This document shows, in pieces, positions 21,137-25,723 of a stretch of DNA of 32,237 bases. The first letter of the stretch is position 1. The number at the start of each line of letters is the position of its first letter. The translations under genes were made by a program, and so were the position numbers. The notes under the pieces are model-generated. The model saw only the letters and a list, made by a program, of their open reading frames with translations, made no database searches and was not told the origin of the DNA. Origin of the DNA: a virus; IMG/VR virus record IMGVR_UViG_3300044636_000228, positions 1 through 32,237 of that record. The stretch is one strand, 5' to 3'.

Positions 21137-22435
21137 TCAGAAGGTTGGGGATGGATCAGAAAAGCGGCAGTATTGGCCTTCGTAATGTAATTTGACGTGG
21201 CCGCATTCGCCGTCTCTTTGCTTTGCGATGATGATGGCAGCTTCGCCAGATGGCTCGGTCCTGTCACGGCTTAGAAGGGCCACTAGGTCACTGTCGCGCT
21301 CCAGTTGTCCGCTGTCGGCTAGGTCGCTGAGTTTGGGCTGACGCCCCTTTTCTTTCTCAGATTCCCGGTTTAGTTGAGCAAGGGCGAGCATGGCGACATT
21401 TGTCTGGACAGCAATGTCTTTAAGTTTGCCACTAACCTCAGCGACCTCGTAGGTGCGCTTTTCTGATCGGTCGGCTGCTTTGACCTTTTGGATGTAGTCG
21501 ACGATCACTAGGCGCACCTTGTGTTTGCGGACAGCCCGTCGGACGTGGGCGGTAATGCTGGAAATGCTATGACTGCTTGGACCATCAAGAAACCAGAGGG
21601 GGCTGTTTGCAATCTTAGCCGATGCGGTGCTCATGGATCTCATGTCACCATCGGTCAGGTCGCCGCTCTTTAGGTTCTGCATCGGGATGCTCCCAATGGT
21701 GGAAACCATGCGTCGGAAGATGGCCTCTTGGGACATCTCTAGGCTGACAAACAAAGTCGGCACCTTGTCTTGGATGGCTGCTTTGTGAGCAATAGCAATG
21801 GCGATGGCAGTCTTGCCGATGCTCGGCCGTGCTGCGATGAGGGCCATCTCTCGGAGCTGGAGGCCGTCGGTCTTCTGGTCAAACCAATGGAAACCTGTGG
21901 CTATTCCCGAAAGTGTGCCCTTGCGGTTAAACCGTTCCTGCATCTGGTCAATGAAGTTGCCGGCAACCTGTTTGCTGGTTGATAGGCTCTCACGGGAGAC
22001 CTCAATGGTGAGCCCTGCTTCGGCATTAGAGACGATTTGATCTGGTTTAAGGGTCAAGACAGCGGACTCACGGATCAAACGGTCCCCAGCGTCTCTGAGC
22101 TGACGACGATGGGCGGACTCAGTAATGCCTTGAATGTAGTACGGCAGGTTTGCCGGGGATGGGCAGACCTCCATGGATTGGTTCCAGATGTCAAAAGGCA
22201 TTGGCAATTGGCCATAAGCCTTCTTCCATTCTTTACCGAGTTCTCCAAGGGTCGGCTGCCTGTTCTCTTGGATTAAACCACGGAGAAGATCAAAGGTCAG
22301 TCGGAGGCTGTCATTCAGCAGCCAATCGCTTCTTACGTCAGCCAGAGCATCTGCGCAGGTGTCGATGGATCCCGTAAGGCAGGCGCCGATCATTCCCAAT
22401 TCGTCGTCTTCTGGATAAAAAACCTCGTTGCTCAT
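21137..22435 (-). CDS. Replicative DNA helicase, DnaB family (432 aa)
   Basis: Residues 202-209 ARPSIGKT are Walker A, SLEM (231-234) follows, and LVIVDYIQ (309-316) is Walker B. QLNR and QLERDSD downstream are further DnaB motifs. The N-terminal part is helical, as in the DnaB N domain. The gene lies directly after the initiator gene and overlaps it by ATGA; ATG 22435 (MSNEVFYPED) has a strong GGAGG eight bases upstream, so it is preferred to the TTG at 22450. It would unwind the replication fork after loading at the origin, while host polymerase does synthesis because none is encoded here. Confidence 0.93.
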   Translation of the reverse strand: MSNEVFYPEDDELGMIGACLTGSIDTCADALADVRSDWLLNDSLRLTFDLLRGLIQENRQPTLGELGKEWKKAYGQLPMPFDIWNQSMEVCPSPANLPYYIQGITESAHRRQLRDAGDRLIRESAVLTLKPDQIVSNAEAGLTIEVSRESLSTSKQVAGNFIDQMQERFNRKGTLSGIATGFHWFDQKTDGLQLREMALIAARPSIGKTAIAIAIAHKAAIQDKVPTLFVSLEMSQEAIFRRMVSTIGSIPMQNLKSGDLTDGDMRSMSTASAKIANSPLWFLDGPSSHSISSITAHVRRAVRKHKVRLVIVDYIQKVKAADRSEKRTYEVAEVSGKLKDIAVQTNVAMLALAQLNRESEKEKGRQPKLSDLADSGQLERDSDLVALLSRDRTEPSGEAAIIIAKQRDGECGHVKLHYEGQYCRFSDPSPTF

Positions 22436-23160
22436 GCGCTGAGCCTCCAATCAATCTCCTTTTTAACTGCTGGCTGGGTAGATCCGGACTGACTTGATTC
22501 TTCCCTCCTCAATTTCCATCCTGTAAGAGATGATTTCCACGAATGCATTTTGGTTTTACCAACAACCCAGTTTTTTGACTCGTAGTAGTTGATGAACTTT
22601 TGAGCCTCAATCAATGGCAGATCAATTTCTGCGCATCTAGCCTCAACCTCTTGCAAAGTAGGTGGGACAAAACGAACACGGGGCGGCTTGTCCGCCTGTG
22701 TCTTCTCTGTCTTCTCTTCTCTATCTTCTCTATCGGTTACCCCATGGGTTACCTGTGGGTTAACCTGATTCGGTTCTGGGTTAACCTGTGGGTAACCTGT
22801 GGGTAACCCGTGGGTTTTCTGTGGGTTACCTGTGGGTTTTTTAGGGCGTCCTCCTTTGCCTCCGTTTGACCATGAGGCTATCAGGCCGGCATTCACCTCG
22901 TCCCATTGGTGGGCTACCAGGTGGCCGTTTTCTACTCGGCAGAAGGTTTGCAGCATGGCCGACCAAAACAGATCGGCATCACCAGGCCATCGGCAGACTG
23001 ATGAGAGGATGACCGGGCTCCAATCTGGGAAGGTGTTGGTCTTCCTTGTTTGGCAATGTGACCACAGCCGGATGACGTAATTAGGCGCTGACTCGGTTTC
23101 CAAAAGCCTCATCAGTAGACGGGTCTTCCAGTGATCTAGGAAGTCGGGTTCGATTATCAT
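22432..23160 (-). CDS. Replication initiator, phage O/gp18-like (242 aa)
   Basis: The N-terminal 100 residues (IIEPDFLDHWKTRLLMRLLE ... VCRWPGDADLFWSAML) look like the winged-helix domain of phage initiators or loaders ('dpdFl.h.k...l'; 'CrwpGd'). Residues about 103-158 form a low-complexity, Asn/Pro/Gly-rich linker that coincides with DNA iterons. The C-terminal segment (EAQKFINYYESKNWVVGKTK, then WKSSLTGWKL) is the common 'f..hY...gW' end of phage initiator proteins. The helicase gene follows, as with P22 genes 18 and 12. The name is by domain pattern and position. Confidence 0.78.
   Translation of the reverse strand: MIIEPDFLDHWKTRLLMRLLETESAPNYVIRLWSHCQTRKTNTFPDWSPVILSSVCRWPGDADLFWSAMLQTFCRVENGHLVAHQWDEVNAGLIASWSNGGKGGRPKKPTGNPQKTHGLPTGYPQVNPEPNQVNPQVTHGVTDREDREEKTEKTQADKPPRVRFVPPTLQEVEARCAEIDLPLIEAQKFINYYESKNWVVGKTKMHSWKSSLTGWKLRREESSQSGSTQPAVKKEIDWRLSA
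22682..22696. repeat. Small palindrome flanking the putative origin
   Basis: GGCGG (22682-22686) and CCGCC (22692-22696) are 5-bp arms around a 5-base loop. It lies immediately beyond the purine tract on the 3' side of the iterons. The lambda origin also has an inverted repeat in this position. Confidence 0.5.
22701..22734. other. Purine-pyrimidine asymmetric tract in the putative origin
   Basis: The plus strand is almost all pyrimidine (repeated TCTTCTC units), so the coding strand is a GA-rich run of about 34 bases. It encodes an acidic/basic mix (EDREEKTEKTQ) in the initiator. The position between iterons and palindrome matches the strand-asymmetric unwinding region of lambda ori. Confidence 0.6.
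22745..22844. repeat. Iteron array inside the initiator gene, candidate replication origin
   Basis: Eight units of 11-12 bp related to TGGGTTACCTG start at 22745, 22756, 22777, 22789, 22800, 22811, 22822 and 22833, with one 9-base spacer after the second. The first and seventh units are identical (TGGGTTACCTG), and two others read TGGGTTAACCTG. The 11-bp period is not a multiple of three, so successive copies fall in different reading frames while DNA similarity is kept. That points to selection on DNA, as for initiator-binding iterons. Gene O of lambda and gene 18 of P22 carry origins in the same way. Confidence 0.8.
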
Positions 23161-23344: not shown

Positions 23345-24010
23345 CTAGTACGCCGGAATCAGCACATCGGCCACGCGTTTGGTCAGCTCCACATCCAATA
23401 GGCAGTAGTCGATGGCTGCTTGCCGGTCGGTATTCCACAACAGGCTGAAGTCGGCGCCGCTGCCACCCTTGTCACCTAGGCCCAAGTGCCGACTAATTGC
23501 ACCGAGGCTGCCGTGCGCCCGGCTGTCTCCAAGCTGCCACACCTCGCGCAGGTCGATCACGGTCTCAGCCCAATAACGACCGCTCCGGAGCCAGTAGGGT
23601 ACTTCTACCCGATGCTTCCAAGAGCGTTTGATCAGGAAGGGCAGGTCAAATGCCTTGATGTTGAAGCCGATCAGCATGGGGTTGCGCTCGTGCTGATTCA
23701 GCAGCGCCCACCATTGCCTAAGCATGGCAGCCTCACCATCGGCATCGGCCCACACGATGTTTGAGCCTTTACCTCCGGGCATCCAGTAGCCGATGCAGAG
23801 CACTTGGCCCGATAAGGCGTCTAGAGCGGCATTTCGGATGTAGTCGCATGTGTGGCTCTCCTCGGCCTTCTGGAGCTTCTCGGCGATCAGGTCGGGGTTT
23901 TTGATGTTGCCCATCTTGACCTGCGTTGGGTCGAAGGGCGGGATGTTGAGTTGGTCGACCGGCAGGGGCCCGGTCTCGATGTCGAAGATGATTTTTGAAT
24001 TGGCTGGCAT
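23345..24010 (-). CDS. PolB-type 3'-5' exonuclease (221 aa)
   Basis: The three DEDD-type motifs are visible: ExoI IIFDIETGPL (Asp10, Glu12), ExoII MLIGFNIKAFDLPF (Asp122) and ExoIII DYCLLDVELT (Tyr202 and Asp206, a DEDDy pattern). The protein is a stand-alone exonuclease without a polymerase domain. It would degrade DNA 3' to 5' and may act in phage recombination or proofreading. ATG 24010 (MPANSKIIFD) is chosen over the open upstream extension because its leader (ACTACTAACCCAAAGCAATT) is A/C-rich and the protein begins at the first strand. Confidence 0.88.
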   Translation of the reverse strand: MPANSKIIFDIETGPLPVDQLNIPPFDPTQVKMGNIKNPDLIAEKLQKAEESHTCDYIRNAALDALSGQVLCIGYWMPGGKGSNIVWADADGEAAMLRQWWALLNQHERNPMLIGFNIKAFDLPFLIKRSWKHRVEVPYWLRSGRYWAETVIDLREVWQLGDSRAHGSLGAISRHLGLGDKGGSGADFSLLWNTDRQAAIDYCLLDVELTKRVADVLIPAY

Positions 24011-24095
24011 ATTGCTAAATTGCTTTGGGTTAGTAGTTGATGCGCGTTTGTCGGCCGATGCGCGCCCCCGGCTTCCCACGAGTCAGTAAGATGGA

Positions 24096-25382: not shown

Positions 25383-25723
25383 GGTTTGTTTCTCCCCTCC
25401 TCTAATATCGCCAGCATTCCACGAGCAACCATACCGTTTGAACCATTCCGAAAGAACCTTCTGCTTGCTCTACTGATAATGTCCTCCAACCGCTTGATGC
25501 GCTCGCAAGCTTCATCACGCTGCTTTGTCAGGATTTGAACCTGACGCTCACGACACAATTTGCTTTGTCCATATCGTCTCCATTCACCATTGTTCAAATC
25601 GACATCTTGAGCTGTCTTGCACTCGTAAGTGGCAAATCTTCCATCCTTAGATTTGATTGGGTTTCCGCAATGAACGCGGACAGGTAATTCACAGAACGGG
25701 CATTTGTCTGGTACGGTATTCAC
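25379..25723 (-). CDS. Zinc-ribbon plus coiled-coil small protein (114 aa)
   Basis: Cys8, Cys11 (CPFC), Cys19 and Cys35 could bind one zinc. Residues about 65-90 are a helix containing the module CERIKRLEDIISRA, whose DNA (25482-25501) is one of four near-identical 20-mers in this region. The start is GTG 25723 in a GTGA overlap, with AAGGGGG eight bases upstream. It is one of a set of small proteins that share the RIKRLE(E/D) helix. Role unknown; zinc-ribbon plus coil suggests a protein-protein or nucleic-acid adaptor. Confidence 0.76.
   Translation of the reverse strand: MNTVPDKCPFCELPVRVHCGNPIKSKDGRFATYECKTAQDVDLNNGEWRRYGQSKLCRERQVQILTKQRDEACERIKRLEDIISRASRRFFRNGSNGMVARGMLAILEEGRNKP

Follow-up and report, generated by a model that had tools for sequence, protein, structure and literature searches.

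A candidate replication origin, arranged as in lambda and P22, within the linker codons of a non-homologous phage initiator gene

Short repeats run through the middle of the replication initiator gene of an uncultured phage, and they raise the question of whether they serve the encoded protein or are themselves a DNA site, possibly the origin of replication. We examined this locus in the virus record IMGVR_UViG_3300044636_000228, whose 32,237 bases constitute the whole stretch of DNA analysed (the window). A sequence-only reading of the same DNA had proposed a lambda-like origin inside the initiator gene of a 31,962-bp circle, and the end repeat behind that circle is there (275 bp, 271 identities). 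Judging from sequence comparison and from analogy with known systems, we consider it very probable that the linker-codon segment of the initiator gene is the phage's origin of replication. The relevant features of the window are:

22432..23160, minus strand: replication initiator gene, 242 aa, assigned from phrog_9474 and phrog_15768 profile matches and a structure model
22846..23160, minus strand: codons of the N-terminal winged-helix domain, predicted to bind the iterons
22733..22842, minus strand: linker codons with the array of iterons, nine 11-12 bp units whose core GGTWACC/GGTTAACC is mostly followed by CA on the coding strand
22724..22742, minus strand: junction element GGGTAACCGATAGAGAAGA, consisting of the last iteron and the start of the tract; its codons GTA-ACC-GAT-AGA-GAA are essentially frozen across the family
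22699..22734, minus strand: purine-rich tract (32/36 on the coding strand), the proposed unwinding element
22682..22696, strand not applicable: small palindrome GGCGG-N5-CCGCC immediately ahead of the codons for the C-domain, found in part of the clade only
22507..22677, minus strand: codons of the C-terminal domain, proposed to recruit the helicase and swapped among relatives directly after the tract
21137..22435, minus strand: DnaB-like replicative helicase, whose ATG overlaps the initiator stop (ATGA)

Repeats, tract and palindrome in the linker codons

The repeats are real and number nine units, one more than the eight originally claimed. Their cores start at 22735, 22747, 22758, 22779, 22791, 22802, 22813, 22824 and 22835 (spacings of 12, 11, 21, 12, 11, 11, 11 and 11), and Tandem Repeats Finder reports period 11 with 8.5 copies at 22745-22838. 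A good GGTWACC or GGTTAACC core is present in 7/9 units; those at 22813 and 22835 are degenerate (GGTTTTC/T), and one turn of the array, around 22766-22778, has drifted. Exact GGTWACC occurs six times in all 32 kb, and five of these occurrences lie inside the array. The repeats fall in all three reading frames, as had been pointed out, but such rotation alone is no proof; with in-frame 12-bp units occurring in some relatives (L051), the argument for selection on DNA rests on synonymous tests.

We therefore compared the linker with 20,000 linkers in which the protein was kept and synonymous codons were drawn by the phage's own usage. There were 5 exact GGTWACC cores versus 0.41 expected, and the 11-bp autocorrelation was 0.57 versus 0.39; in both cases 0/20,000 draws reached the observed value. 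Under a stricter null, in which only the codons already used in the linker were permuted, the 11-bp period had p 0.0002 and exact cores had p 0.037, while allowing cores up to one mismatch gave p 0.17. The non-triplet 11-bp repeats are not explained by the protein, and the earlier preference for DNA recognition over protein selection holds up in that synonymous shuffles never reach the core count or the 11-bp periodicity.

Along the coding strand the repeats are followed by the purine tract and then by the palindrome, all within the codons of the linker or at its C-terminal edge; this is the order first described. The supposed 34-base tract exists as a strand-biased segment (on the plus strand, 32/36 are pyrimidines, making it the most strand-biased 36-mer of the window), but it is imperfect, and the longest pure purine run in the initiator gene is 13. 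Its GC content of 40%, at the 5.7th percentile of the window, makes it only mildly AT-rich. The palindrome, with a stem of 5 bp, is likewise present where it had been seen, but it is missing in close relatives (L005-L010) and many others. GC skew of the window peaks at 25,388 in the raw curve and at 22,211 once detrended.

An alternative is selection at the RNA level, on an mRNA structure controlling translation or decay, and the window segment does fold better than shuffles (z -4.3). Measured against synonymous nulls in 23 sequences, however, z lay anywhere between -4.3 and +1.8, folding was not consistently stabilised, and the predicted stems do not include the purine tract. We rejected RNA structure as the selected feature, given its inconsistency across relatives, and give this explanation almost no chance of being correct.

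Conservation among relatives

A protein search yielded 76 relatives of the initiator, and profile searches added others, among them three contigs from Verrucomicrobiota/Pontiella, two metagenome-assembled and one from a named strain. The linkers of these relatives differ in length and sequence; most keep repeats at 11-12 bp intervals that resemble GGTWACC/ATAACCCA, followed by a GATAGAGAAGA-type purine tract, and L076 is without the tract. The comparison of relatives suggested at the outset thus came out in favour of a DNA site, with repeats and tract kept while the protein linkers vary and with codon choice at the junction frozen. Array and tract are kept even in ~55%-identical initiators on Pontiella/Verrucomicrobia contigs, relatives that hint at a Verrucomicrobiota-type host for the phage family. 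The gene following the initiator in most relatives read encodes a DnaB-like helicase, a DnaC-like protein or a primase-helicase-like protein, as judged by motif and sequence start. Three related initiators on Pontiella/Verrucomicrobia contigs (L110, L111 and L112) are probably in prophages, and in L110 and L111 a primase-helicase-like gene comes next in place of DnaB.

Among 20 diverged linkers, mean 11/12-bp periodicity was 0.544, versus a highest shuffled mean of 0.465 in 2,000 synonymous shuffle sets; taken singly, these linkers gave p from 0 to 0.39. Codon choice was compared pairwise among 27 diverged representatives, which are related, so that pairs are not independent, with the N-domain of the same genes as the control. 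Synonymous codon identity was 44% in the N-domain versus 98% at GTA-ACC-GAT-AGA-GAA; within the N-domain, no run of five codons exceeded 67%. All disagreements at the junction codons trace to L070, a misanchored row whose anchor fell on the preceding repeat. Because shuffles miss both the core count and the periodicity, and because the junction codons are frozen while the N-domain drifts synonymously, the pattern is what selection on DNA would look like.

The same data bear on the idea that a low-complexity Pro/Asn/Gly/Thr linker was kept for protein reasons or made by replication slippage. Copy number in the linkers does change by frame-preserving amounts, as in the 33 nt (three 11-bp units) that separate the window from L007, and L051 has its in-frame 12-bp units. 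Against this idea, synonymous shuffles fail to reproduce the repeats, and the junction codons stay frozen beside a protein domain that drifts synonymously; we regard it as very unlikely.

A DNA-level search of cultured phages with the region gave no match. Scanning for the exact junction pattern brought back initiator relatives already known and one extra contig, L098, which is itself a relative, and a three-iteron pattern matched two contigs, L299 (a known relative) and L300.

The C-terminal part of the protein is replaced by at least three unrelated types directly after the tract, in genes with a similar N-domain and linker (L003-L078), and some of the swapped domains match O-like (phrog_678), DnaD-like (phrog_1701) or other initiator families. 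Because at least three unrelated C-terminal domains come after a similar N-domain and linker, the origin appears to mark a module boundary. The simplest reading of these sequences is that the N-domain and its own binding sites form one module, with an exchangeable, helicase-recruiting module behind it. The conserved DNA might instead be a recombination hinge, a crossover point for the exchange of initiator C-domains, as several unrelated C-domains directly after a conserved tract in otherwise similar genes could suggest. A hinge would account for the exchange but not for helical-phase repeats or a sequence-specific core, and it is more likely a consequence of a conserved origin; as the explanation in its own right we think it highly improbable.

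The initiator protein and known origins

The predicted structure has a confident winged-helix-like N-domain (residues ~5-101), a linker predicted to be disordered (residues ~110-160), and a small C-terminal domain predicted to consist of three helices (residues ~169-224). The N-half of the protein matches phrog_9474, a replication initiation protein family (E 2.4e-5), which is also matched by the N-half of relatives (L112, E 2e-32; L068, E 1.4e-30), and the C-half matches phrog_15768 (E 3.4e-19). The adjoining helicase gene is recognised in Pfam as DnaB_C (E 8e-74). Upstream of the initiator, at 23345-24079, lies a 3'-5' exonuclease or DNA polymerase exonuclease-subunit-like gene (phrog_403), a member of the replication block.

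A Pfam search with the window initiator matched no family, including PF04492 (Phage_rep_O) and RepA_N (PF06970), and nine relatives gave no Pfam match except one weak Med4 hit; the Phage_rep_O profile, by contrast, matched lambda O (E 6e-36) and P22 gp18 (E 7e-38). Comparison by hhalign with Phage_rep_O-type initiators found nothing. With no PF04492 match and an empty hhalign result, we rejected the window initiator as a lambda O homologue or Phage_rep_O member at the level of sequence. A PDB sequence search with the N-domain profile gave no match. A fold search with the predicted N-domain returned generic winged helices only, the RepA_N structures 4pql, 5kbj and 4pt7 among them (Z 4.8-5.2); resemblance to known initiator structures at Z ~5 appears too weak to count and is not discriminating, and the absence of lambda O from the matches of that search excludes nothing.

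The layout of the locus nonetheless has parallels in known systems. In lambda, the iterons are bound by O and unwinding takes place in the AT-rich region beside them (PMC7466680; PMC5043065), and as in the window, iterons and an adjoining tract lie in the middle of the initiator gene (PMC7466680; annotated iterons). The lambda iterons are 18-19 bp imperfect inverted repeats placed 20-24 bp apart, whereas those of the window have a GGTWACC core at 11-12 bp spacing. Lambda has an AT-rich region where the window has a purine-biased tract at 40% GC, and it has the P loader gene next to an initiator with PF04492, where the window has a DnaB gene next to an initiator lacking that domain. P22 shares the gene order of the window, with gene 18 followed by an overlapping DnaB gene (gene 12), and its repeats, biased tract, GC hairpin (CCCCC..GGGGG), C-domain and DnaB come in the same succession. 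Unlike the window initiator, P22 gp18 carries Phage_rep_O, its TCGGTAAA-type repeats are ~23 bp apart, and its sequence has no detectable similarity to the window N-domain.

In the RepA_N protein Rep of pSK41, Rep boxes lie centrally in rep and are bound by the winged-helix N-domain, and the origin encodes the linker; the C-domain appears to be host-specific, and in a natural chimera, pPR9, N-domain and origin were exchanged (PMC5703833). Central boxes, a winged-helix N-domain and an origin-encoded linker have probable counterparts in the window, where the predicted N-domain bears a weak fold resemblance to 4pql, 5kbj and 4pt7. The window differs in that it has no Pfam RepA_N match, its repeats have another sequence, and the adjacent gene is a phage DnaB. 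For phrog_9474, matched by the N-half in the window and its relatives but not by the C-half of the window protein (phrog_15768), we found no experimental origin data for the sequence family. As far as sequence can tell, the window system seems to work like those of lambda, P22 and RepA_N plasmids and lies outside their protein families by any test made.

As a control for the synonymous-periodicity scan, lambda O gave a signal at positions covering the annotated iterons, and P22 gene 18 gave one at its annotated origin; the third control, TP901-1 rep (used without a reference origin position), gave no repeat signal. The analogy with lambda O and P22 gene 18 that had been drawn for the window is a good fit: the repeats sit in the linker, iterons precede the tract, the DnaB gene downstream overlaps by ATGA, and the scan picks up the known origins of both phages.

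By analogy with lambda and pSK41 Rep, we infer that the winged-helix N-domain would bind the GGTWACC iterons, which, because they are spaced one helical turn apart, would all face the same side of the double helix. Once assembled, the complex would strain and open the adjoining purine/pyrimidine-biased tract, and the C-domain would pass the phage DnaB helicase, the product of the neighbouring gene, to the opened strand; replication would proceed in the theta mode. Backing this model are the conservation of iterons and junction as DNA, their order, their position in the linker, the helicase neighbour, the predicted winged helix and the swapped C-domains. Against it stand the mild AT-richness of the tract, a palindrome not conserved in close relatives, the weak structural similarity and the silent TP901-1 control. 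On balance, a lambda/P22-style intragenic origin within an unrelated, non-homologous initiator gene is a well supported reading of the sequence and of the analogies.

Iteron arrays in plasmids can act in control as well. The array might accordingly be an initiator binding site for autoregulation or copy control (handcuffing or operator), with the strands opening elsewhere, and here the melting of the tract is our inference. A control site would have to accommodate an array that lies mid-gene and not at a promoter, a conserved strand-biased tract that comes after it at a fixed position, and the same layout in lambda and P22 with a known or annotated origin, and we consider it unlikely. The proposed intragenic origin is a concrete, testable one for an uncultured phage family with relatives on Verrucomicrobiota contigs.

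Linker repeats in other phage initiators

Phage initiators were picked by their C-domain only, and the 150 nt upstream were tested for non-triplet periodicity against synonymous shuffles (p<=0.01); the loci were the best 80 of larger sets (L219-L298; L305-L384), not a random sample. With the YYxSxGW C-domain, the window's own type, 43/69 linkers from the best 80 loci were periodic, versus 6/69 N-domains and 1/69 C-domains; with the FWxxYPRK C-domain, again among the best 80, the counts were 18/53, 1/53 and 0/53. The scan thereby flagged half of 122 phage initiators at p<=0.01, all from the best loci of larger sets, although the nulls may be somewhat generous because linkers have low complexity. 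Periods were 10, 11, 20 or 22 bp in 35/43 of the significant YYxSxGW-set linkers. Palindromes were enriched at the linker/C-domain junction (18/72 and 8/53 at p<=0.05 against synonymous shuffles, versus 0-2 in the N- and C-domain controls), a wider pattern than the patchy palindrome of the window's own clade.

The N-domains looked at differ in kind as judged by eye. We lean, by a small degree, towards the view that phages replicating in the theta mode commonly, and perhaps by default, place the origin in the linker codons of the initiator, even where their N-domains are not homologous. Every such initiator would come with its own iterons in helical phase and a biased tract, in many cases also with a palindrome; the DNA-binding domain and origin would move as one unit, with the helicase-side C-domain exchanged at its edge. 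No survey of phage origins within initiator linkers came up in literature searches of open-licence papers. Comparing non-triplet periodicity with synonymous shuffles is a simple computation that recovers the lambda and P22 origins, and if the plan is indeed common, linker repeats alone would point to origins in uncultured phages. For many phages, origins and initiator specificity could then be deduced from sequence, and those unusual initiator linkers that are charged or Asn/Pro-rich would turn out to be by-products of DNA sites.

Two further observations concern individual loci. In L258 and L271, whose N-domains look different, the AACCCA/GGTAACCCA-like repeats are alike, recur with an 11-bp spacing and lead into a biased tract. 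GC-rich hairpins of the CCCCC..GGGGG type stand directly before the C-domain codons, after the tract, in L068, L069, L077, L112, L213, L264 and L304, as they do in P22 gene 18.
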